A stretch of DNA of 39,321 nt from Nitrospirae bacterium JdFR-81 (GCA_002011735.1 MTOQ01000075.1:1-39321), one strand, 5' to 3'. Counted from the first letter of the stretch, positions 107-13,247 are shown. Notes: a model not told the origin generated them from the letters alone. Translations and numbers: made by a program.

Positions 107-136
107 TTGACAGTGAATAGCCCTCCTGTTTATACT
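107..136 (+). promoter_or_regulatory. Sigma70-type promoter flanked by an 8-bp inverted repeat
   Basis: TTGACA at 107-112 is separated by 18 bases from TATACT at 131-136. The predicted transcription start is near 143, essentially at the ATG at 145. A perfect inverted repeat, ACAGTGAA at 110-117 and TTCACTGT at 137-144, brackets the spacer and -10 box. It lies upstream of the expected transcript, so it is more likely an operator than an RNA hairpin. The promoter would drive the six-gene operon at 145-4147. Confidence 0.65.
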
Positions 137-144
137 TTCACTGT

Positions 145-432
145 ATGAGGAGATTGATCGCCCTTCTGATCGTTTCGATCTTCATATTCTATTCTATCCC
201 CCTTACGCTTTCTGTTGATGTATCCACGGATAGCAGACCGGTGATCCTCACTCTCGACCTCTGCCACAAGGTTGATGCACCGTTAAAGACCGGTGCCGAA
301 TGTTCATGGATCAATGCGCCTGTCTTTGAAACCCCTTTTGTCAGACTCTCATATGCCTTGAGGGAGGCGGCCTTTATATTATTCGATCCCTTCACAGCCC
401 CTCCTGAAGAGAAGCCCCCAAGAGTGGCCTAA
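145..432 (+). CDS. Small exported protein, first gene of the NosL/ABC operon
   Basis: I do not recognise a named family. The 95-residue product has a basic start (M-R-R), a hydrophobic stretch at about residues 4-23 that looks like a signal peptide, and a short mature domain with only two cysteines (C40 in D-L-C-H and C53 in A-E-C-S). These could form a disulfide or bind metal. No Shine-Dalgarno sequence precedes the ATG, while a good promoter ends nine bases upstream, so the mRNA may be leaderless. The nosL-like gene follows after 30 bases with a strong ribosome site, which places both in one operon. A role in copper or metal handling is inferred from that neighbour only. Confidence 0.6.
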   Translation: MRRLIALLIVSIFIFYSIPLTLSVDVSTDSRPVILTLDLCHKVDAPLKTGAECSWINAPVFETPFVRLSYALREAAFILFDPFTAPPEEKPPRVA

Positions 433-462
433 CCCCTCTCAGTCACTATCAAAGGAGGAGGT

Positions 463-954
463 ATGGATATGCAGAAGGGATGTGCTGTGGTGATCGCATT
501 TGTTGTCCTCTTTTTTATAGGTACATCATCCGCCTTTGAGTTCATAAGGCCAACCAAGAGGGACAAGTGCCCTGTCTGCGGGATGTTTGTATATAAGTAT
601 CCACAGTGGACTGCCGAGATAGTCTTTAAGGATGGTACATATGTGGTCTTTGATGGGCCAAAGGATATGTTCAAGTATTACTTTAACATCAATAAGTATG
701 GCAGAGACAGGGAGGAGATAGATCATGTGTGTGTCATGGACTATTATACGACCAATCCGGTGGATGCGAAAGAGGTCTATTTTATCAGAGGCAGTGATGT
801 TTATGGCCCGATGGGAGAGGAGCTTGTGCCTGTAAAGGGTGAGAGGGCAGCAGAGATGTTTATGAAGGACCATAAGGGGAAGGAGATACTCAGGTTTGAT
901 GAGGTTACCCCTGAGGATATACCCGGTATGCAGATGCATGAGCACAGGATGTAG
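463..954 (+). CDS. nosL: NosL-family copper-binding accessory protein
   Basis: NosL proteins bind Cu(I) and help metallate nitrous oxide reductase; relatives occur in other metal-delivery operons. The 163-residue product has a signal-peptide-like N-terminus (hydrophobic to about residue 24, then F-E-F). The family hallmark C-P-V-C-G-M lies at residues 36-41, followed by the typical stretch of a W, V-F-D-G and D-M-F-K-Y-Y. Unlike many NosL proteins it lacks a convincing lipobox, so it may be soluble or held by an uncleaved signal. The C-terminus has extra Met/His residues (G-M-Q-M-H-E-H-R-M), possibly metal ligands. The start is chosen from an AAAGGAGGAGG site just upstream. No nosZ, nosD, nosF or nosY is nearby, so the client protein is unclear. 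Confidence 0.85.
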   Translation: MDMQKGCAVVIAFVVLFFIGTSSAFEFIRPTKRDKCPVCGMFVYKYPQWTAEIVFKDGTYVVFDGPKDMFKYYFNINKYGRDREEIDHVCVMDYYTTNPVDAKEVYFIRGSDVYGPMGEELVPVKGERAAEMFMKDHKGKEILRFDEVTPEDIPGMQMHEHRM

Positions 955-1004
955 GTGGTTTATATTGCCCAGCCTGCCGTTTTTGGGCTCGGAGGATTTT
1001 AAAG

Positions 1005-1319
1005 ATGAGGCACAGGATATTTGTTGTCTTTATCCTTCTTGAGTGTCTCATGTTCATCTTCCTTATTGTCTTCAGCCATATATCCGCCAGAAACAGGGCA
1101 GGGGAGATGGCCTCGATGAGGATGATCGTCAGGGGGCTGATGCTCACGGACATGGCTGTGTGGACGGCTGCGAGGTACACCAGGCACCCCTCACAGGCTG
1201 ACCTCTTTACCCCATTTCAGGACTTCCCAGGGTCTATAGAACACTTTCCGGCTGGCTCTATCATTGCACCACCGGAGTCCGTCAAGGGTCTGGCCGATGG
1301 ATCAGATGATAAGACATAG
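1005..1319 (+). CDS. Single-span membrane-anchored protein of the NosL/ABC operon
   Basis: No family is recognised. The 104-residue product has one hydrophobic segment at about residues 5-26, followed by a roughly 75-residue domain probably exposed to the periplasm, ending in an acidic tail. A GGAGG site lies about 10 bases before the ATG. The 3' end overlaps the start of the ABC permease gene by roughly 14-23 bases, which implies translational coupling. It may be an accessory subunit of the ABC system or a NosL partner. That is inferred from position; the sequence shows no catalytic motif. Confidence 0.6.
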   Translation: MRHRIFVVFILLECLMFIFLIVFSHISARNRAGEMASMRMIVRGLMLTDMAVWTAARYTRHPSQADLFTPFQDFPGSIEHFPAGSIIAPPESVKGLADGSDDKT

Positions 1320-2463
1320 CAAGATACTTGATTTTGCCATTATGTCCATATTCAGAAGGAGGCTCAAGAACCTCTCCATCGTTATTGTCTTCACACTGCT
1401 TACAGCCATCCTCTCTTCCATCCTCTTCTTTACACACTCATTCAAGATGGAGGCCGTGGGACTTTTGGCCGATGCGCCTGAGCTTATAGTCCAGAGGGTC
1501 TCTGGTGGCAGGCATGCACTTATTGCAGAAGACTATATGGAGGTTATCAGGGGGTTTTATGGCGTGAGCGATGTGATCCCCCGTTACTGGGGATACTATT
1601 TTGACAGGGCGACTGATAGCAACTATACCGTTATGGGCATAAACAGGGCGGTCAGTGGTCTTGGATTACTCAGGGGAAGGCTGCCTTCACAAGAGGGCGA
1701 GTGTGCCCTCGGTAGCGGGGTTGCAGAGGTGAAACACCTTGATATCGGCAAAAGGCTATATCTCCTTGACAGCAGGAGGAGGGTGAGGAGCTATCGTGTG
1801 GTTGGTATATTTGATACACTCTCAAGACTCCTTACCAATGACCTGATACTGCTTACAGAAGATGATATAAAGGAGCTGTTTGACATCCCTTCTGGTATGG
1901 CTACGGATATTGTTGTGGCCGTGAATAATGAACTGGAGGTCCCGTACATAGCAGGCAAGATCAAGACCACACTCCCTGATACGAGGCCGATCATGAGGAG
2001 CGAGATACTCCAGACCTATGAGACACTGTTTGGCTGGCGTAGTGGAATGATGCTCAGCATGTTCCTCTCTTCCCTTGTGGCATTCTCCATACTTGCGTGG
2101 GATAAGGCTACCGGGTTGAGTGCCGAGGAGAGGAGGGAGATCGGGATACTCAAGGCCGTTGGATGGGAGACATCGGACATCCTTGAACTCAAGTTCTGGG
2201 AGGGTCTGGTCATCTCACTCACTTCGTTTCTTACAGGCACGATAATCGGTTATGTCCATGTCTTCTTCCTTGGTGCGCCTCTTCTTTCACCTGTGCTCAA
2301 GGGGTGGTCTGTCCTGTTCCCTTCGTTTGACCTGATCCCCTACATAAATCCATATCAGATCATCACACTCTTCTTTCTTATTGTTATCCCATATATAGCG
2401 GTGACCATCATCCCCTCATGGAGGGCTGCCATAATGGATCCTGATGAGGTGATCAGGGGGTGA
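1297..2463 (+). CDS. ABC transporter permease, MacB/FtsX type
   Basis: This is an inner-membrane permease with the MacB/LolC-like layout. A first membrane span at about residues 26-48 is followed by a periplasmic domain of about 200 residues (MacB-PCD-like). Three more spans form an FtsX domain, with the characteristic cytoplasmic E-R-R-E-I-G-I-L-K-A-V-G-W loop between the second and third. The product ends D-P-D-E-V-I-R-G, a common end for this family. ATG 1297 gives 388 residues; ATG 1306 is equally possible, and ATG 1264 would overlap the previous gene much more. The stop overlaps the GTG start of the ATPase gene by four bases. Such transporters act as mechanotransmitters or move lipoproteins and peptides rather than ions, so direct copper transport is not implied. 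Confidence 0.85.
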   Translation: MDQMIRHSKILDFAIMSIFRRRLKNLSIVIVFTLLTAILSSILFFTHSFKMEAVGLLADAPELIVQRVSGGRHALIAEDYMEVIRGFYGVSDVIPRYWGYYFDRATDSNYTVMGINRAVSGLGLLRGRLPSQEGECALGSGVAEVKHLDIGKRLYLLDSRRRVRSYRVVGIFDTLSRLLTNDLILLTEDDIKELFDIPSGMATDIVVAVNNELEVPYIAGKIKTTLPDTRPIMRSEILQTYETLFGWRSGMMLSMFLSSLVAFSILAWDKATGLSAEERREIGILKAVGWETSDILELKFWEGLVISLTSFLTGTIIGYVHVFFLGAPLLSPVLKGWSVLFPSFDLIPYINPYQIITLFFLIVIPYIAVTIIPSWRAAIMDPDEVIRG

Positions 2464-3155
2464 AGGGAGTCCTGATCGAGATAGAGGGTGTATCAAAACT
2501 CTACAATCAGGGGATGCCTGATGAGGTAAGGGCGCTCACTGGGATTACCATGCAGATAATGAAGGGCGAGGTGGTGATCCTTAAAGGGCCAAGTGGCTCT
2601 GGAAAGACCACACTCCTGAGCCTCATAGGCTGTATGGCACGGCCGACAGAGGGCAGGATAGTGGTTAAGGGCAGGGCGGTTTCGAGGCTGCCTGAGAGGT
2701 TTCTCACTGATATAAGGAGGAAGACCTTCGGGTTCGTCTTTCAGGAGTTCAACCTCATAATGGATATAACCCTTATAGAGAATGTCATGCTCCCCCTCTA
2801 TCCAACAGGGATGAGATATTCAGAGATCCGGCTGAGGGCATCCTCGATGCTTGATAGGTTTGGCCTTTCTGAGAAGGCTGATCACCTGGCAAGGTCTCTG
2901 TCAGGTGGTCAGAAGCAGAGGCTTGCCATTGCGAGGGCGATGGTGAATGATCCAGAGATATTGCTGTTGGATGAACCGACTGCCCATCTTGATGCAGGGT
3001 GCTCTGAGGAACTCCTCAATATGCTCTCCTCACTCCGTGACGATGGAAGGACGATCATCATTGCGACCCATGATCCCCTTGTGTATGAAAGGGGGTTTGC
3101 TGACAGGATATTTGAGATGAGGGACGGGATGATCAGAGGGGTGTCAGGGAGGTGA
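2460..3155 (+). CDS. ABC transporter ATP-binding protein, LolD/MacB-like
   Basis: The 231-residue ATPase partners the permease immediately upstream. It has Walker A (G-P-S-G-S-G-K-T-T, near residue 40), a Q-loop (F-V-F-Q-E-F-N-L), the signature L-S-G-G-Q-K-Q-R, Walker B (I-L-L-L-D-E-P-T-A) and the switch His in I-I-A-T-H-D. The F-V-F-Q-E-F-N-L-I segment and short length are typical of the LolD/MacB/FtsE class. Translation starts at GTG 2460 inside the permease stop (GTGA), and the gene ends in the same kind of overlap with the next GTG start, so the three genes are translationally coupled. Confidence 0.92.
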   Translation: MKGVLIEIEGVSKLYNQGMPDEVRALTGITMQIMKGEVVILKGPSGSGKTTLLSLIGCMARPTEGRIVVKGRAVSRLPERFLTDIRRKTFGFVFQEFNLIMDITLIENVMLPLYPTGMRYSEIRLRASSMLDRFGLSEKADHLARSLSGGQKQRLAIARAMVNDPEILLLDEPTAHLDAGCSEELLNMLSSLRDDGRTIIIATHDPLVYERGFADRIFEMRDGMIRGVSGR

Positions 3156-4147
3156 TACTCCATCCTGGTGTTATATCACTCCTTGTGGGCTCTATCGTTG
3201 CGCTCTCCATGCTTCTTTATGCATCGGGCATGGGTGTAAGGATTATATCAAGGTGGGATATCAACAGCACATCATCAGAACAGCTCTCACTGGAGAGGAA
3301 GACATGCCTTATATCCACCATAATGAACTATGCCCTTGGTTTCTATATCCTCTCACTCTTCCTGTTTGTATATACCGCTGATGACCTTCATATGCTCTTT
3401 GTTGGTGCAATGTGTGCAACAGGCTCGTTCAATGCAAATCCGGTAGGCTGGAAGGTCCTTTATCTGAAGATCCTGTTATTTTTCCTCACATCTATCTGGA
3501 TAGCAATAAACCGTGTGGATCAGAGATCTGAGGAGTATCCACTGGTGAAGACAAAATATACGATACTCCTCTTCATAATACCCTTTGCCATGTTTGACAT
3601 CCATCTACAGTTCAGATACTTCATGGGGCTGAGGCCCAATATCATAGTTTCGTGTTGTGGTGCCCTCTTTAACGAAGGTGGTGGGGTGGCATCCGGTCTA
3701 TCATCCCTGCCAGAAGGTCCTATGAGATGGGTTTTTTATATTACAGTAACTCTATTCCTTCTGGTGGCAGGCCTCTCCCTTGTCTTTGAGAGGCCCATAC
3801 TCAGATACATCCATGGCACATCCTCGGTTATGGTCTTCTTTGTGTCCATTGTGTCCATCATATCCTTTATCTCAATCCATTTCTATGAGATACCTACACA
3901 CCACTGCCCATTTGACCTCCTCCAGGGTGATTATCATTATGTGGGCTATGCCATCTACACAACCCTGTTTGGAGGGGTGTTATCTGGGATCATACCTGCT
4001 ATATTCGAGATTATCAAGAGGGATTCAATAGAGGATACGATCAGGGAGGCTCAGAAGAGGTATACAATTGGATCCATCATCCTTATAATCATATTCACCC
4101 TCATCTCCTCATGGCCAATCCTCTTCTCAGGCTTCAGGGTCTCCTGA
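3152..4147 (+). CDS. Polytopic membrane protein with Cys/His motifs
   Basis: No family is recognised with confidence. The 331-residue product has about eight hydrophobic spans. Potential metal ligands or redox thiols sit at span edges: H80-M81 followed by M-C-A-T-G at 87-91, C-C-G at 168-170, and H-H-C-P-F-D at 250-255. It starts at GTG 3152, overlapping the ATPase stop by four bases. It ends inside the convergent napD-like gene, overlapping it by 21 bases. Operon membership with nosL and an ABC pair suggests a metal, heme or thiol transport or insertion role, but that is an inference from context. Confidence 0.75.
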   Translation: MILHPGVISLLVGSIVALSMLLYASGMGVRIISRWDINSTSSEQLSLERKTCLISTIMNYALGFYILSLFLFVYTADDLHMLFVGAMCATGSFNANPVGWKVLYLKILLFFLTSIWIAINRVDQRSEEYPLVKTKYTILLFIIPFAMFDIHLQFRYFMGLRPNIIVSCCGALFNEGGGVASGLSSLPEGPMRWVFYITVTLFLLVAGLSLVFERPILRYIHGTSSVMVFFVSIVSIISFISIHFYEIPTHHCPFDLLQGDYHYVGYAIYTTLFGGVLSGIIPAIFEIIKRDSIEDTIREAQKRYTIGSIILIIIFTLISSWPILFSGFRVS

Positions 4148-4378
4148 CCGTGTATCTTCAAAGCTATAGAAGAGGAGCTGGACATCCCTTACATGCTCGA
4201 TATGTCTCAACCTCTCTATCTCAGACCTCACGATATCCACTGTCTCGGCCTCTATAAGGAAGATGATCTTATCCATATCGATATCATCAACCATTATACT
4301 CCTCTTCTTCAATTCATCCACAACACCATCCACCTTATCCTCTCTATCAACGCTGATAATACCGCTGGCAACGATCAT
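4127..4378 (-). CDS. napD: Second NapD-like maturation chaperone
   Basis: NapD proteins bind the twin-arginine signal of NapA and hold back export until the molybdenum cofactor is inserted. This 83-residue product shows the small alpha/beta NapD pattern: an opening I-V-A-S-G-I-I-S-V strand, a V-D-D-I-D-M-D-K-I-I-F-L-I-E-A middle, and a C-terminal H-V-R-D-V-Q-L-L-F-Y strand. It is the second NapD-like gene here and lies past a predicted terminator behind the octaheme cytochrome gene, with its own AGGGAAAGAG ribosome site. Its 3' end overlaps the convergent membrane-protein gene by 21 bases. Family assignment is by pattern only; the client could be NapA or another Tat substrate such as NapG. 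Confidence 0.65.
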   Translation of the reverse strand: MIVASGIISVDREDKVDGVVDELKKRSIMVDDIDMDKIIFLIEAETVDIVRSEIERLRHIEHVRDVQLLFYSFEDTRSGDPEA

Positions 4379-4458: not shown

Positions 4459-5961
4459 CTACTTGATCCCGAGCCTCTCCTTTACTGCCTTCCTTACACG
4501 GAGTTTCTCAAGCCAGTCTGCCATATGGGAACCATCATCAACAACCTCATAGGAGCCTTCCCAGTGCTGCCAGTCCTGTCCCTGCATGAATGCACCCATT
4601 CTCCAGATTCGACCTTCATGATGCCAGATCTCATGCCAGAGGTTGTCGGCCTCGCTCTTACCATTGAACTTGATGTCCTCGTCAAGCCTCTCTTTCTTTA
4701 TCGGGTCATAGTACTTCTTCTTTATGGCCAGGACCACCGCGTTATAGACGTCGATCGTCTTATCAGCCTTCTTGAGATCGCCTTCTGCCCAGCTACGGAC
4801 ATGGCACTGGTTACAGACCTTTATCATATCCTCACGCTTCTCGTCAGGACTCCTCAGCGCATCGCCTCCAAAGGCATCAAGCCTTGTCTCACCCCTGGAC
4901 CACCACTTACCAGGCCCGACGTATGCCTTATATACATCAGGGGCGAATTTCTTTGCAATGGCAAAGGGATTTGGTAGACCTGTCTTGACGGCCTTTAATG
5001 AGCCAGGGGGTAGATTATGGATCTTCTCATACCGTCTTGCGATCTCAGGGTCGATGGGGAACTTCTCCTTGCCGATCCAGTATTTCTTGTCCGTTGGCCA
5101 TGAGAATGCAGGCTCAAGCTCCCACTTCAGCCTTGCACTCACGTTATGTGTGCTCTCTACCGCACCACCGAATCCGCTCATGTGGCAGGTAGCACAGGTT
5201 GGTGCCTCTATGTCTTCAGGGCCCCACTGTCCTGGAGGGACATTCCAGTTCCATTCCTCACCATTTGCCTCATAGAGGTTTCCGTGTTTGCTCTCCTCAT
5301 AGATCTCTCTTTGAGGATGGTCAGGGCCAAGATGGCATTGACCGCAGGTCTCCGGCTTCCTTGCCTGGGCGATACTGAATGTGTGTCTTGTATGACATGC
5401 TGCACATGAACCAGCACTGCCGTCAGGGTTCAGCCTGCCGATGCCCATGTTAGGCCAGTTAATCAGGGTTCCTCCCTTTCCAACCTTTATTACGGTGCCG
5501 TGACAGTCAAGGCAGCCTGCTTCTGCACTCTCACGGGAGAAGTTTGTCTTGTAGTTCTTTGTCTGGCCAAGTGTAATCGTCTCTTCAACCCTTTCTCCAC
5601 TTACTACTCCATAGGCTGACATGGCAAAGAGCGCTGCCTCGTCATGCATGCTCTCACGGAATTCCTTTACCTGTTTTGGATGACAGCTTTCACAGTATCT
5701 TGGCGATACGATGGTTGTAACCCTGAACCCATTGTGTTCAAACCCTGCAGGGTCATCCTCCTTTGCCTTATGGCATACATAACACTTTACACCCACCTTG
5801 CTGTGTTTGCTCTCCTGCCACTGCTTGACGATACCAGGTGTTACAGTGTCGTGACAGTTGATGCATGGTGAGACTGGGGTCAGATCTACTTTTGCTGACG
5901 CAATGACAGGCACTGTGAGGATTGCCACCACTGATATTAATATCAAATGGATCTTCTTCAT
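4459..5961 (-). CDS. Octaheme hydroxylamine oxidoreductase-like cytochrome c
   Basis: The 500-residue periplasmic cytochrome has a signal peptide ending A-S-A (residue 23) and exactly eight C-x-x-C-H motifs, at residues 33, 60, 90, 150, 186, 206, 256 and 383. The uneven spacing, with a long gap before the eighth, and the C-terminal E-I-W-H-H-E-G-R...R-M-G-A segment match the octaheme HAO family. In ammonia oxidisers HAO oxidises hydroxylamine; in nitrate-reducing bacteria related proteins are thought to reduce nitrite. In the segment where I expect the cross-linking tyrosine, the protein reads D-W-Q-H-W (463-467), with Y471 the nearest tyrosine; loss of the cross-link would favour reduction. 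It lies in the nap operon behind an AAGGAGGTG site, 23 bases after napD. The reductive role is inferred. Confidence 0.88.
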   Translation of the reverse strand: MKKIHLILISVVAILTVPVIASAKVDLTPVSPCINCHDTVTPGIVKQWQESKHSKVGVKCYVCHKAKEDDPAGFEHNGFRVTTIVSPRYCESCHPKQVKEFRESMHDEAALFAMSAYGVVSGERVEETITLGQTKNYKTNFSRESAEAGCLDCHGTVIKVGKGGTLINWPNMGIGRLNPDGSAGSCAACHTRHTFSIAQARKPETCGQCHLGPDHPQREIYEESKHGNLYEANGEEWNWNVPPGQWGPEDIEAPTCATCHMSGFGGAVESTHNVSARLKWELEPAFSWPTDKKYWIGKEKFPIDPEIARRYEKIHNLPPGSLKAVKTGLPNPFAIAKKFAPDVYKAYVGPGKWWSRGETRLDAFGGDALRSPDEKREDMIKVCNQCHVRSWAEGDLKKADKTIDVYNAVVLAIKKKYYDPIKKERLDEDIKFNGKSEADNLWHEIWHHEGRIWRMGAFMQGQDWQHWEGSYEVVDDGSHMADWLEKLRVRKAVKERLGIK

Positions 5962-5984: not shown

Positions 5985-6236
5985 TCAGTTTTGAATCTTG
6001 TCCATCTCTTCCTCCCAGTTAATATATGATAGTCTTAGGTCTATCACCTCCTTCCATTGTTCAATCTCTTCTGAAAGTTGCCTGAGTCTGTCCATATCCT
6101 CTGCCTCCATTACAATAGCTATCCCATTCTCACCAATACCATGGACTTCTACCCCCTTTAATGAATTAAGCCTTCCCTTTAATATCTCTTCAAATTCTTT
6201 CCTTACTGGCACAACAACAGCCCCTGCTATTGCCAT
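5985..6236 (-). CDS. napD: NapD-like nitrate reductase maturation chaperone
   Basis: This 83-residue protein has the NapD fold pattern: an opening beta strand (I-A-G-A-V-V-V-P-V), the L-K-G-V-E-V-H-G-I segment typical of NapD, a G-I-A-I-V-M-E-A strand, and a closing strand ending D-L-R-L-S-Y. It is cytoplasmic and should bind the NapA twin-arginine signal peptide. It starts one base after the napH stop, using the GGAGG site at the end of napH, so the genes are coupled. Residues after the fold are acidic (E-E-E-M-D-K), as in other NapD proteins. Confidence 0.8.
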   Translation of the reverse strand: MAIAGAVVVPVRKEFEEILKGRLNSLKGVEVHGIGENGIAIVMEAEDMDRLRQLSEEIEQWKEVIDLRLSYINWEEEMDKIQN

Positions 6237-8296: not shown

Positions 8297-10720
8297 TCAG
8301 ACCTTCATTAACTTTACCGCACAGACCTTGTAATCAGGTTCTCCAGCACCTGACCAGCTCTTTGGGTGATCTACCGTCAGGAGGTTTATGAGCTTGTTTT
8401 CATCAAACCATGGGACGAAGACCATACCCTCTCTTGCCCTCTCTGTAACCCAGACAGGCAGCACGATCTCCCCCCTCCTTGAGATGATCTTCAGCCTGTC
8501 GCCGCTTGATACCTTAAGCCTCCTTGCATCTTCAGGGGAAACCTCCACATAGGCGTTTGGATTCATCTCCCTGAGCAGTCTTACACGCATCGTCATTGTC
8601 CCTGAGTGCCAGTGCTCGATCACCCTTCCTGTGTTCAGGACGTATGGGTATTGTGTATCAGGCATCTCAAAATCAAGGCCTGCCTTAAGGACTCTGATTA
8701 TCGCCTTGCCATCCGATCCCTTGTGGAATGGGTGATGGCCATAGTAGTTGATAAGGCCCCTCATACCCTTTGACTCAAGGTGCTGATCATAAAGGGTTAC
8801 ATATCCTGTCCTGTATCGTCTTGTGGTGCTACCAAACACCTTCTGTGCATAGCCCTTGGAGATGTATCTCTTTGCACTGCCACGATTGTTCATCTCGGTG
8901 CTCGGGCAAGGCCACTGGATGCCACCTGCATGCGCCTTGAGCTTCTCGTATGTTGCACCCCAGAGATCGACATCCTGTCCCCTTGTGCAGAGCCTGTATT
9001 CATTCCACGCCTCCTCCTCGGTCTCAAAACCAAGACCATAGACCTCTCTTACCTGTTTGACCCTTCCGGTCATTGGATCTATCACCCTGTATCTGGTCTT
9101 CCTGCCAAGCCTCCTGGCTATCCTCTTTGCAACCTCCTTGATCTGCCAGAAATCAGGCATCGCCTCGCCAGGTGGATCCACGAGCTTGGGTATAAACTGT
9201 GACCGTCTGTCTGTCTGGCCCATTACACCCTCCTTCTCAATCCACATGGCAGAAGGCAGGATGACTGTGGCAAGTTCTGTCGTCCTTGTGGGATATATAT
9301 CACTAACCACCGTAAACGCCTTCTCCATCGCCTTACGATATCTGCCTGCATTCGGGAGGCTCTGCCCTGGATTTGTGGTATTTATCCATATCGCCTTTAT
9401 CTTCCCCTCTTCAAGCCTCATAAACATATTTACTGCAGGGCCTGTCGGCTTCTTTGGTAACCACTCTACCGGCACCCCCCATATCTCTGCGATCTCCTTC
9501 CTGTGTTTTGGATTTGCCACTGCCCTGTGTCCTGGAAGGATGTGGGTGAGCCCCCCTTGCTCCCTTGTTCCACCACAGGCATTTGGCTGCCCTGTGAGGG
9601 ACAGGGAGTCACAGCCTGGTTTGCCGATCTTGCCCGTGAGGAGGTGGAGGTTGTGGACCATACAGTTGAGCTGCACACCCTGGGTTCGCTGATTGAGCCC
9701 CATTGTCCAGAGACTCACTGTTGCGTATCCCTTCCTGCCAAACCACCTTGCCGCCTTTCTTATATCTTCAGCAGGTACGCCTATTTGAGATGCAACCTTT
9801 TCAGGTGCATAATCTGAAAGGAAGGTCTTATAGGCATTGAAATCAACAAAGTCGCCTTTGGTCTTCAGACCCTTCCTGAATGTGCAGAAATTGAGATGTT
9901 CCTCATCCACCATCCCCTCCTCCACTATCACATAGGCCATGGAATTCAGGAGGAAGGTATCATAGCCTGGTCTGAATTTGAGATGCAGATCCGCATATCT
10001 TGCGGTCGGTGTGTATCTTGGGTCAGCAACGATTACCTTTACCTTCTCAGGATAGGCACTCTTGCGGTCTATAACCCTCCTGAAGAGCATGGGATGTTGC
10101 TCTGCCATGTTTGAGCCGATGATGAAGAAGCAGTCTGTCATGTCGAGATCATCATATGTGCCTGCAGGCTCATCTGCCCCAAATGTATTCAGGTATCCCC
10201 CCACAGCAGATGCCATACAGAGCCTTGGGTTGCCCTCAACATTCGCAGTGCCTATGATACCCTTAAATAGCTTATTTGCAGCGAATGCCTCCTGGGTTGT
10301 ATTCTGTCCTGACCCATACCATGCGACACTATCAGGGCCATATTTCTTGACGAGACCTGCAAATTTGTCAGCAATAAGGTCGAGCGCCTCATCCCAGCTG
10401 ACCTCTTTATACCTGCCATTAGGTTGTCTCACCATGGGCTTCTTCAACCTGTCCTTACCATACATGATATGGGGTAGTGAGTATCCCTTCATGCAGAGAC
10501 GGCCAAAGTTGATGGGGCTGTCTGCATCACCCTTGACAGCAACCATCTTCCCATTCTTTATCCCCGCCAGCACCGTGCATCCCGTACCGCAGAACCTGCA
10601 TTGTGCCCTTCCATATTTAATGGAGCTATCAGCAAACACCTCAACAGGCAGTCCTGCCATTGCCATGGCAGTGGCTGCTGCTGATGCCTTGATAAAGTCC
10701 CTCCTTGTCACCCTTGCCAT
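8297..10720 (-). CDS. napA: Periplasmic nitrate reductase catalytic subunit NapA
   Basis: NapA reduces nitrate to nitrite in the periplasm using a bis-MGD molybdenum cofactor and one 4Fe-4S cluster. The 807-residue product has a Tat signal (T-R-R-D-F-I-K-A-S-A near residues 5-14), cluster ligands C41, C44, C48 and C76, and the family-typical I-M-Y-G-K-D-R-L-K-K-P. The molybdenum ligand is C168 in R-L-C-M-A-S-A-V. The C-terminal cofactor-binding domain contains G-R-V-I-E-H-W-H-S-G-T-M-T and ends A-V-K-L-M-K-V, as in NapA. Length is close to the E. coli protein. AAAAAAGGAGGTG precedes the ATG. It heads the nap operon, 172 bases below the response-regulator gene, with a likely regulator site between. 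No NapB partner is encoded here. Confidence 0.96.
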   Translation of the reverse strand: MARVTRRDFIKASAAATAMAMAGLPVEVFADSSIKYGRAQCRFCGTGCTVLAGIKNGKMVAVKGDADSPINFGRLCMKGYSLPHIMYGKDRLKKPMVRQPNGRYKEVSWDEALDLIADKFAGLVKKYGPDSVAWYGSGQNTTQEAFAANKLFKGIIGTANVEGNPRLCMASAVGGYLNTFGADEPAGTYDDLDMTDCFFIIGSNMAEQHPMLFRRVIDRKSAYPEKVKVIVADPRYTPTARYADLHLKFRPGYDTFLLNSMAYVIVEEGMVDEEHLNFCTFRKGLKTKGDFVDFNAYKTFLSDYAPEKVASQIGVPAEDIRKAARWFGRKGYATVSLWTMGLNQRTQGVQLNCMVHNLHLLTGKIGKPGCDSLSLTGQPNACGGTREQGGLTHILPGHRAVANPKHRKEIAEIWGVPVEWLPKKPTGPAVNMFMRLEEGKIKAIWINTTNPGQSLPNAGRYRKAMEKAFTVVSDIYPTRTTELATVILPSAMWIEKEGVMGQTDRRSQFIPKLVDPPGEAMPDFWQIKEVAKRIARRLGRKTRYRVIDPMTGRVKQVREVYGLGFETEEEAWNEYRLCTRGQDVDLWGATYEKLKAHAGGIQWPCPSTEMNNRGSAKRYISKGYAQKVFGSTTRRYRTGYVTLYDQHLESKGMRGLINYYGHHPFHKGSDGKAIIRVLKAGLDFEMPDTQYPYVLNTGRVIEHWHSGTMTMRVRLLREMNPNAYVEVSPEDARRLKVSSGDRLKIISRRGEIVLPVWVTERAREGMVFVPWFDENKLINLLTVDHPKSWSGAGEPDYKVCAVKLMKV

Positions 10721-10892: not shown

Positions 10893-11576
10893 TCACGATT
10901 CAGCAAACATATAGCCAGCCCCAGGGACGGTGATGATGTACTGGGGATTGGAAGGGTCCCTCTCTATCTTCTTTCTCAAGTGCTGGATGTGGACATCTAT
11001 GACCCTGCTCCAGGAGTATATCCTTGTGTCCTTCCAGAGGTGTCTCCTTATCCTTTCTCTACTGATCACCTCTCCTCTGTTTTCAATAAAGAAACAGAGG
11101 ATCTCATATTCCTTTGGCGTAAGTTCAATCCTTTTCCCCCTGACCCTTACCTCTCTCTTTCTGTAATCGACAGTGATATCACCAACAGCAATCCGTTCTT
11201 CCCGGTGTGTTGGACTCGTTCTTCTGAGGCATGCCTTTATCCTTGCCACGAGCTCAATGGTCTCAAAGGGCTTTACAACATAATCGTCTGCGCCGCTTTC
11301 AAGCCCTATAACCTTGTCAGAGACCTTGTCCCTTGCTGTCAGCATTATTATGGGCAGGTCAGGCATCCTCCTCCTCAGCTCACGGCATATCTCCATCCCG
11401 TCTCCGTCAGGAAGCATGATGTCAAGGAGGATGAGGTCCGGCGGGTATTGTAGCAGGAGGTCCTCTGCCTTCTTCCAGGAGTCTGCGGTGATCACCTCAA
11501 AATCGTGCAGCTGGAGATTCGCCTTCAAGACCATTAGGATGTCTCTGTCATCATCTACTGCCAGTATCCTGCTCAT
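10893..11576 (-). CDS. OmpR-family response regulator of the nap region
   Basis: The 227-residue protein has an N-terminal receiver domain with acidic pocket D8-D9-D10, phosphoacceptor D52 (L-L-D-I-M-L-P-D-G-D-G), T80 and K102. It is followed by a winged-helix DNA-binding domain (E-L-T-P-K-E-Y-E-I-L through V-P-G-A-G-Y). It starts 9 bases after the sensor-kinase stop, so the pair is one operon. Position just upstream of napA and the direct repeats between them suggest it activates napA. The signal is likely redox, nitric oxide or nitrogen-oxide related, given the heme motif in the kinase. Confidence 0.92.
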   Translation of the reverse strand: MSRILAVDDDRDILMVLKANLQLHDFEVITADSWKKAEDLLLQYPPDLILLDIMLPDGDGMEICRELRRRMPDLPIIMLTARDKVSDKVIGLESGADDYVVKPFETIELVARIKACLRRTSPTHREERIAVGDITVDYRKREVRVRGKRIELTPKEYEILCFFIENRGEVISRERIRRHLWKDTRIYSWSRVIDVHIQHLRKKIERDPSNPQYIITVPGAGYMFAES

Positions 11577-11585
11577 AAGGGATCT

Positions 11586-13247
11586 TTAAGTTACAGCATA
11601 TTGGTGACTCTTTGGTAAGGTGAAGCAGAATGTACAGCCCCTTGAGGCCTTATTGCATGAGGCCATGATCCTTCCACCATGGGCCTCTACTATGGCCTTG
11701 CATATAGCCAGGCCAAGTCCTGTGCCATCAGTGGTGCTTCTTGTGTAAAACCTGTCGAATATCCTTTCGATCTCATCCTCCGGTATCCCAGGCCCCTCAT
11801 CACTGATGGAGAAGGTGACATCATCGGCTGAATCACTGATATCGATTCTTATCTCAGAACTGGGTGGACTGAACTTGAGGGCGTTTGATATGAGATTTAT
11901 TATAACCTGCCTTATCCTGTCTTCGTCAGCTATTATCATGCTCTCAGGGTTTCCATTGAGCTTGAATACAATCCCCTTCTCAGAGGCCAGTGTGTAAAAA
12001 CTGTGTATCACCTCTTTGGTAAGCTGGAGGAGGTTGAATTCGTCTCTGTGGAGGTCAAAGACTCCGGACTCTATCTTTTCGAGATCAAGGGTATCATTCA
12101 CCATCCTTATCAACCTCTCGGTATTGCTCCTGATGAGGTCCATAAACCTGCGAATCTCTTCCTGATCGATCCTTCTGTGGTCGTTTGAAGATAGCATGGC
12201 AGAGATGTATTCCATTGCACCCTTTATGGATGTGAGCGGTGTCCTGAGTTCATGCGATACCTTTGCGATATAGTCTGATTTCCTCTTATTCAACTCAGCA
12301 AGCCTTGCGTTTGCCTCCTCAAGTGATCGGGTGGCAGAACGCACCATCTCTTTGAGATTGTCCTGATAGTTCTTGAGAGCCTTTGACATCTCCACAAACG
12401 ACCTGCTCAATTCCTCGAGCTCGTCCCCTGTCCTTATGACCGATGTTTCCACCTTCTCGTGTCTTGACAGCCTCTTCATTGATGCCTTTATATGGGACAC
12501 AGGGTTGAGCACGAGCACCTTCATCATGAGGTAAAGGATCATGGTCAATAAACCTGCACTCATAAGGCCTGCAAAGATTATCGCCCTTCTTTCTGAACGC
12601 AGTGTATGGAGCACATTGTCTACGGGGATGATTACACTTATAGCACCCCTTACATCTCCGACCTTGTATCCCTGATGTCCATGACACCTTAGACAGGCCT
12701 CTTCCACATAAAGGGGTGCGATGTATCTATAGAAATGGGAGCCGTCCATCTCGTCTATCTTTGATAGCTCCTTTGCCTCACCCTTCTCAAAGAGTATGAG
12801 GGCCTTTCTCTCGAATTCATCCGGTGCATTCTGTGGGTTGACGAGTTTCAGACTCGTTATATGAAACCAGAATAGTCCCTCCTTCTGGGCATATTTTGAT
12901 AACTCCTTGGTTACCATGGCAGGGCTCTCTTTTATGTATCTCTTGCCCTTTATATCGGTAATCTCGGCCTCTTTTAGATAGGGGTTTGGCTCCTTCCATG
13001 GCAGTTTCTCCACAAATACACCGCCATGATCAGCAACCCATCTCCTTGTGAGTAATATCTGCTTGAATAACGCCTTTGCCTGAACATTTACCTGTTCCAT
13101 TACGAGCTCCTTGTGTTTATTCGAGATGAGGTAAAGGGAGAGGCCCATCGTTATGGCAAGGATCGTGATGACCCCGATGACAAACTTGTGGCTGAGGCTG
13201 ATCTTCAGCCTCCTGAACTCTCTCAAAGGCCTTTTGATAGTCTGCAT
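11586..13247 (-). CDS. Sensor histidine kinase with periplasmic c-type heme motif
   Basis: The 553-residue inner-membrane kinase has spans at about residues 22-42 and 222-242 enclosing a periplasmic domain. That domain carries a single C-L-R-C-H (185-189), followed by V-G-D-V-R-G-A-I-S-V, the pattern of the DUF3365/Tll0287-like heme-binding sensory domain. A HAMP-like linker and a coiled coil (about 285-325) lead to HisKA with H332 in S-H-E-L-R-T-P. The ATPase domain has the N-box near N455, D-E-G-P-G-I-P at 483-489 and G-T-G-L-G-L at 508-513. The natural reading is a redox or gas sensor acting through the adjacent regulator on the nap operon. The heme is inferred from the motif. Confidence 0.9.
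   Translation of the reverse strand: MQTIKRPLREFRRLKISLSHKFVIGVITILAITMGLSLYLISNKHKELVMEQVNVQAKALFKQILLTRRWVADHGGVFVEKLPWKEPNPYLKEAEITDIKGKRYIKESPAMVTKELSKYAQKEGLFWFHITSLKLVNPQNAPDEFERKALILFEKGEAKELSKIDEMDGSHFYRYIAPLYVEEACLRCHGHQGYKVGDVRGAISVIIPVDNVLHTLRSERRAIIFAGLMSAGLLTMILYLMMKVLVLNPVSHIKASMKRLSRHEKVETSVIRTGDELEELSRSFVEMSKALKNYQDNLKEMVRSATRSLEEANARLAELNKRKSDYIAKVSHELRTPLTSIKGAMEYISAMLSSNDHRRIDQEEIRRFMDLIRSNTERLIRMVNDTLDLEKIESGVFDLHRDEFNLLQLTKEVIHSFYTLASEKGIVFKLNGNPESMIIADEDRIRQVIINLISNALKFSPPSSEIRIDISDSADDVTFSISDEGPGIPEDEIERIFDRFYTRSTTDGTGLGLAICKAIVEAHGGRIMASCNKASRGCTFCFTLPKSHQYAVT

Follow-up and report, generated by a model that had tools for sequence, protein, structure and literature searches.

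A NosL-centred gene cassette comprising an ABC pair and an eight-helix membrane protein of an undescribed family as a candidate periplasmic copper-handling system

A six-gene locus in Nitrospirae bacterium JdFR-81

We analysed a 39,321-nucleotide contig of Nitrospirae bacterium JdFR-81 (GCA_002011735.1 MTOQ01000075.1:1-39321; contig C20 of genome G000), hereafter the window, which belongs to a genome of 2.05 Mb that is 96% complete. Near its beginning lies a cassette that encodes a NosL family protein, an ATP-binding cassette (ABC) permease and ATPase, and a polytopic membrane protein. A sequence check placed all six open reading frames (ORFs), g1 to g6, on the plus strand at 145-4147, as reported in a preliminary description of the window. 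The features are as follows.

107..136, +, promoter-like site TTGACA-18-TATACT (11/12, consensus match only)
145..432, +, g1, small exported or anchored protein of 95 aa with an ILTLDLC motif and a PP-rich C-terminal end; relatives lie upstream of NosL
463..954, +, g2, NosL family protein of 163 aa with a signal sequence and CPVCGM (PF05573, 9.6e-31)
568..585, +, CPVCGM codons of g2, likely Cu(I) ligands (CxxCGM in 58/58 cassette NosL proteins)
1005..1319, +, g3, 104 aa, one transmembrane (TM) helix and a conserved periplasmic tail (alignment, model)
1306..2463, +, g4, LolC/MacB-like ABC permease with FtsX and MacB_PCD domains (Pfam; start from homologues)
2460..3155, +, g5, ABC ATPase of the FtsE/LolD/MacB class (ABC_tran)
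3152..4147, +, g6, predicted eight-TM protein of an undescribed family, 331 aa (AlphaFold2 model)
3410..3415, +, g6 Met87-Cys88, loop TM2-3 (alignment of 56 sequences)
3653..3658, +, g6 Cys168-Cys169, loop TM4-5 (same alignment)
3899..3907, +, g6 His250-His251-Cys252, loop TM6-7 (same alignment)

The genes had been described as coupled by 4-base overlaps, which holds for g4/g5 and g5/g6 only; g3 and g4 overlap by 14 bases, given a g4 start at the ATG at 1306, where the g4 homologues begin, and gaps of 30 and 50 bases separate g1 from g2 and g2 from g3, respectively. The near-consensus, sigma-70-like site ends 8 bases upstream of g1. Since it lies so near the start codon (window 107-145) and g1 has no clear ribosome-binding site, the mRNA from which g1 is translated may be leaderless. 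At the other end, a napD-like ORF on the opposite strand (4127-4378) overlaps the end of g6, and a convergent nap-type cluster begins directly there; the cassette is therefore a separate unit.

Five genes of the cassette recur in at least four phyla

We then investigated the distribution of the cassette. Among 296 genomes of the same phylum, the sample used for co-occurrence, g6 was found in 55, with strong matches in 46. A single-sequence scan of genome contigs detected no relative, whereas an alignment-based scan of the contigs found at least 564, and the loci of 80 of these were examined. These belong to Nitrospirota, Desulfobacterota (Desulfuromonadales, Desulfobulbaceae and others), Gammaproteobacteria (Chromatiaceae and others) and Acidobacteriota. 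Loci cut by contig ends aside, the order NosL-g3-g4-g5-g6 was kept in the majority of some 100 distinct loci spread over at least four phyla, a recurrence far beyond chance. The six-gene operon of the preliminary description thus stands as a conserved core of five genes, g2 to g6, whose order extends well beyond one lineage, whereas relatives of the sixth gene, g1, were detected in Nitrospirota-type loci only. In the g6 tree, gammaproteobacterial and acidobacterial sequences are interspersed among those of Desulfobacterota and Nitrospirota, which suggests transfer between phyla.

The g1-like proteins, found only in Nitrospirota-type loci, are short, hydrophobic at the start and PP-rich at the C-terminal end, and share the motif L-x-L-D-x-C; several are encoded close upstream of NosL (e.g. 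L052, L054, L060, L063, L076 and L079). In the same genomes, exported proteins of this LxLDxC...PP type also adjoin FtrD-type FtsX/ATPase modules (L052, L053, L060, L063 and L079), and several of the modules with a g1-like gene additionally have a beta-propeller-like protein. Of the two cysteines that had been pointed out in g1, both are there, but only that of L-x-L-D-x-C is common to the relatives. Because such genes recur both upstream of NosL and beside FtrD-type ABC modules, g1 is probably a genuine accessory of the Nitrospirota-type lineage, outside the widespread core.

NosL, the ABC pair and a small anchored protein

The match of g2 to the NosL family exceeded the Pfam cut-off (PF05573, 107.3 bits against 24), and its nearest solved relatives are the NosL structures 7og7 and 7osf. 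NosL is established as a chaperone for Cu(I) and carries a CxM motif (PMC6530538, PMC7558416). The sole NosL of its genome, g2 carries an N-terminal signal sequence and the CPVCGM motif, which contains C-x-M and holds the likely Cu(I) ligands. The lipobox cysteine typical of NosL from nos clusters was not found in g2, and a lipobox pattern occurs in 6 of the 66 cassette NosL ORFs.

The permease g4 matched FtsX (8.9e-10) and MacB_PCD (2.7e-7), both above the Pfam cut-offs, and g5 matched ABC_tran (1.4e-33). LolC is both the nearest curated relative of g4 and, by sequence comparison with the PDB, the nearest solved one. The scores nevertheless stayed below the equivalog cut-offs, with 51.5 against 362.5 bits for g4 as LolC/E and 191.4 against 307.8 bits for g5 as LolD, and the pair likewise lacks the marks of MacAB-TolC, as its ATPase and permease are separate and no MacA adaptor gene is present among the cassette genes. 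In LolCDE, MacB and FtsX-type ABC complexes, the stroke of the ATPase is passed on to periplasmic domains. The cassette shares with LolCDE and MacB an FtsX plus MacB_PCD permease and an FtsE/LolD-class ATPase, but it has a single permease and, instead of MacA or LolA, NosL and g6 as partners. One locus (L053:12194-13327, genome G254) has an additional FtsX-type permease gene between g3 and g4.

None of g1, g3 and g6 matched a Pfam or NCBIfam family. The most conserved part of g3 is the tail after the TM helix, with the pattern LTD..T.ARYTRHPSQAD.F..FQD.P.S.EHFPAGS, and D49, A56, R57, Y58, R60, D66, F71, Q72, P82 and G84 are invariant in 46 sequences. The g3 model is poor beyond the TM helix (pLDDT about 50-60), and we used it solely as an indication that the tail is probably unstructured on its own. 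Since the tail is strongly conserved and yet predicted to be unstructured alone, it looks like a partner-binding segment.

An undescribed membrane protein with invariant cysteine, histidine and methionine residues

The AlphaFold2 model of g6 has eight TM helices (pLDDT 89.5, pTM 0.88). In the alignment of 56 sequences, M87, C88, C169, H250 and C252 are invariant (56/56), and C168 and H251 are kept in 55 and 54 sequences, respectively. These residues lie in the motifs M-C, C-C-G and H-H-C-P-F-D at codons 87-88, 168-170 and 250-255, so that the C/H motifs first noticed in this gene are indeed conserved across the family. The same residues, including M87-C88, persist, barring single losses, in distant relatives that are only 20-25% identical, those of the type II cassette described below. 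All three motifs lie in the loops TM2-3, TM4-5 and TM6-7, on one side of the membrane. Because the loops of this side contain 1.9% Lys+Arg, against 15.2% on the other side, the motifs are predicted by the positive-inside rule to face the periplasm.

A thioredoxin-like CxxC was also considered as the conserved feature of g6 and was rejected, since the second cysteine of the possible CxxC (CPFC/CIYC) is an aspartate in the window g6 and in 52 of the 56 sequences. No PDB chain matched g6 by sequence, and a fold search returned none at E<=0.001, the only matches being at E>=0.33. Judged from its sequence, g6 is an undescribed membrane protein family with invariant ligands of the soft-metal type, and it is the main source of novelty in the cassette. 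In some Nitrospirota, g6 stands apart from the rest of the cassette (L062, L067, L105 and L109); three of these loci are beside scpB and two have a nucleoside-transporter-like gene.

Neighbouring genes and co-occurrence point to copper as the likeliest metal

Among the 150 nearest directon neighbours in 95 loci, we found 19 extra NosL-family, 13 SCO1/SenC and 7 FtrD-like genes. SCO1/SenC accounted for 13 of 169 near neighbours against 1 of 772 farther genes (odds ratio 64), and the near versus far counts were 21 vs 15 for extra NosL, 8 vs 1 for FtrD and 4 vs 2 for TlpA; these counts are not independent, because the loci are related to one another. SCO1/SenC adjoined the cassette in 13 loci, extra NosL paralogues were present in 20 loci, and 32 of the 95 loci had at least one copper-related neighbour. 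In Desulfuromusa (L102 and L108), the cassette lies downstream of genes for a CuA-type oxidase subunit II and a UbiA-type (CtaB-like) prenyltransferase, and in L102 the remaining oxidase subunit genes are upstream of it as well. PCuAC, CusBA and Cu-type P-ATPases occur near the cassette in single cases: in L073 and L043 it comes after genes for Cu-type P-ATPases or a DsbD_2 protein, and CusBA-like genes immediately precede it in L136 and L143 and are close to it in L039. A recurrent neighbour of SCO and the cassette (L035, L075, L090, L093, L107, L123 and L145) encodes a protein of about 570 aa that combines a periplasmic-binding-protein-like region with a weak cytochrome c region.

Co-occurrence, counted without phylogenetic correction, pointed the same way. 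COX1 (E<=1e-40) was present in 38 of the 46 cassette genomes and 92 of the 250 others, with a profile (PF00115) that also captures cNOR, a copper-free enzyme, and SCO was present in 18/46 and 43/250, respectively. As in SCO1/SenC-PCuAC assembly of CuA, with which the cassette probably shares its task area, SCO being its most enriched neighbours, the likely clients would include copper oxidases; the cassette differs in being an ATP-driven membrane complex and, in the window genome, in lacking SCO. The neighbourhood and the COX1 co-occurrence thus support part of the preliminary description, which proposed copper or haem delivery, maybe to a copper oxidase: copper is the likeliest metal, and copper oxidases are among the likely clients.

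Several observations weigh against this assignment. PCuAC, COX2 and CusA, suggestive as single cases, showed no significant near-versus-far enrichment (CusA 2 vs 4, p 0.29), two thirds of the loci are without a copper gene in their nearest surroundings, and FtrD-like genes, which are tied to iron uptake, are likewise enriched. COX1 at E<=1e-40 was not found in 8 of the 46 cassette genomes, so an exclusive link between the cassette and copper oxidases was rejected. Among these eight, G130 has both Cu-oxidase_3 and plastocyanin-like proteins, G282 has the former and G136 the latter, and in the other five (G107, G240, G254, G270 and G274) COX1 at this threshold, Cu-oxidase_3, NosZ and plastocyanin-type proteins were all unmatched; G274 holds a partial COX1, and G240 is also without NosL. 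The JdFR-81 genome itself gave no SCO match, and its cbb3 oxidase operon (L156, G000:C36), assigned by reading the sequences, is already equipped with its own Cu P-ATPase.

The cbb3 oxidase is the only candidate client found in this genome. No Cu-oxidase_3 and no plastocyanin-type protein was detected in it, and NirK is therefore absent. The genome encodes a cNOR (norCB; L157, G000:C83), likewise assigned by reading the sequences, yet neither a NirK-type enzyme nor nosZ.

Relation of the cassette to nitrous oxide reductase assembly

The window nosL is accompanied by g3, the FtsX-type permease, the FtsE/LolD-class ATPase and g6, and no NosD, NosF or NosY gene was found beside it. The absence of nosZ from the locus extends to the whole JdFR-81 genome, which has none at 1e-30, the best partial match scoring 21 bits against a cut-off of 625; TIGR04246 was used here instead of the nos_propeller profile PF18764, which was silent in this genome and in all controls and was not used as evidence. 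Within the phylum sample, nosZ was present in 9 of the 46 genomes with the cassette (type I) and 13 of the 250 others, leaving 37 of the 46 without it. Together with the widely conserved gene order, these results support the earlier proposal of a distinct NosL/ABC/membrane system, separate from a nos system of its own genome.

A diverged version, the type II cassette (L044-L050), comprises a lipobox-type NosL, a second NosL, a small anchored protein, an FtsX permease, an ATPase and a g6-like protein. It was present in 11 genomes, 8 of which have nosZ, against 14 of the 285 others, and 12-17 kb separate it from nosZ on three contigs (G156:C23, G116:C33 and G207:C1). As nosZ encodes a copper enzyme, this association speaks for copper as the metal. 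On the same contigs nosF- and nosY-like genes adjoin nosZ, so the type II cassette adds to the usual ABC pair and does not replace it; the idea that the ABC pair takes the place of NosFY was rejected for this reason. Nearly all cassette genomes contain a NosL, as do 3 of about 20 genomes with neither cassette type. Genomes with both nosZ and the type I cassette mostly hold another, nos-linked NosL with a higher Pfam score, and the type I NosL is thus a separate paralogue.

The cassette resembles NosDFYL, which assembles the copper site of nitrous oxide reductase, in combining a NosL Cu(I) chaperone with a membrane ABC machine whose ATP use is likely mechanical rather than for transport. It differs in having no NosD, NosF/NosY-type permease or NosZ, in a NosL that is mostly without a lipobox, and in a LolC/MacB-type permease with a periplasmic core domain, joined by g3 and the eight-TM g6. 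No NosL-FtsX/LolC cassette has been described in the literature that we searched. The nearest case is the nos cluster of Sulfurospirillum cavolei, where five genes (a hypothetical gene, an ABC permease, an ABC ATPase and two hypothetical genes) are inserted between nosL and nosY and left unexplained (PMC4794192). Their layout, judged from the gene list of that paper, resembles the type II cassette. We consider the cassette to be a probable NosL-plus-ABC metallation system, of a known type but itself undescribed in the literature searched.

A proposed role in periplasmic copper metallation

Because the five genes travel together through at least four phyla, often near copper-assembly genes, they probably form a copper machine for respiratory enzymes other than NosZ. 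Copper handling in a wide sense is a probable function, and on balance we favour the narrower proposal that the cassette is a NosL-centred periplasmic Cu(I)-handling or metallation machine that delivers to enzymes. NosL would bind Cu(I) in the periplasm through CxxCGM, and g3 would tether or recruit a partner by its conserved tail, or present the Cu(I) that NosL brings. ATP hydrolysis by g5 would move the periplasmic domain of g4, by mechanotransmission as in LolCDE, MacB and NosDFY, and would not pump copper. The thiol/His/Met site of g6 at the membrane surface (M-C, C-C and H-H-C) would receive, hold or redox-condition Cu(I), or alternatively keep a cysteine pair of the target reduced during transfer to the apo-enzyme. 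The clients would be respiratory copper enzymes other than NosZ, haem-copper oxidases first, although naming these as the main client is tentative. Comparably tentative is the full version, in which the cassette would be a widespread ATP-driven machine that metallates haem-copper oxidases (and, where diverged, nitrous oxide reductase), with g6 carrying a new kind of Cu(I) relay site at the membrane surface and having a fold that is not in the PDB.

NosL has so far been regarded as a dedicated chaperone of nitrous oxide reductase, and we know of few systems for copper insertion into periplasmic copper sites that are understood. If the proposal is right, the function of NosL is wider than nitrous oxide reductase, as part of an ABC cassette that occurs without nosZ and is carried by hundreds of genomes, most of them from anaerobic or microaerophilic organisms, and mechanotransmission ABC complexes serve metallation beyond NosDFY. 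A membrane family with an invariant soft-metal site, in any case, still awaits a function. Cultured carriers include Desulfuromusa kysingii, Malonomonas rubra, Imhoffiella purpurea and Pelovirga terrestris, which makes the system testable.

The main rivals are copper export and a Fet-like iron or redox role. For export or detoxification of copper or another soft metal, NosL and g6 would collect Cu(I) and the MacB-like pair would aid CusBA-type efflux, which would fit the MacB_PCD domain of g4 and the CusBA-like genes near three cassettes and would account for those carriers in which no copper enzyme is evident. However, the cassette genes include neither an adaptor of the MacA type nor an outer membrane factor, CusA is not enriched, and the SCO and oxidase links favour delivery, so that we consider export rather unlikely.

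Alternatively, the ABC pair and the cysteine-containing eight-TM protein might provide reducing power in the form of thiols for the handling of iron (and copper), as a helper resembling FetABCDEF of the Campylobacter jejuni p19/FetMP iron system. Campylobacter FetA is described as an eight-TM cysteine protein that works with the ABC transporter FetBCD, whose substrate is unknown (PMC10783030). By this description, the cassette and the FetABCDEF/FtrD systems share a polytopic cysteine protein, an ABC pair and thioredoxin neighbours, TlpA-like in four loci, and FtrD modules adjoin some cassettes, in keeping with the enrichment of FtrD-like (PF10080) genes. This role nevertheless seems unlikely: no FtrD, P19 or FetM gene belongs to the cassette, whose distinguishing protein is NosL; the FtrD-like DUF2318 (PF10080) was unmatched by all six genes; and only Nitrospirota loci showed the FtrD link. 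The cassette also differs from these systems in that the conserved ligands of g6 lie in loops connecting TM helices.

It had also been suggested that the cassette serves the adjacent nap-HAO island, for which it might be a maturation factor in haem, thiol or lipoprotein handling. The physical neighbourhood and LolC as the nearest solved relative of the permease would agree with this, but the two units are convergent and separately transcribed, related cassettes stand in different, unrelated surroundings, the LolCE and LolD scores are far under their cut-offs (51 vs 362; 191 vs 308), and cassette NosL proteins are generally without a lipobox. Nap and HAO enzymes, moreover, are not copper enzymes. 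Since the link did not recur in the neighbourhoods read, it was rejected, and such a role is very doubtful. Least probable is a leftover or variant of the nitrous oxide reductase assembly set, for although NosL is present, type II is tied to nosZ and a minority of type I genomes have it, most type I genomes lack nosZ, those with it mostly hold the separate, higher-scoring nos-linked NosL, and the cassette is intact and conserved where nosZ is absent.

Adjacent genes in the window

The nap-type cluster beyond g6 contains a NapA-like gene (8297-10720), genes for NapG/H-like ferredoxins and two NapD-like ORFs (4127-4378 and 5985-6236). Within it, on the minus strand at 4459-5961, lies the gene of an octahaem-type cytochrome with eight CxxCH motifs and a weak match, far under the cut-off, to hydrazine dehydrogenase/HAO. 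Upstream of the cluster, a sensor kinase gene (10893-13247, minus strand), whose product bears a haem-type CxxCH motif in the sensor portion, stands beside that of a response regulator.

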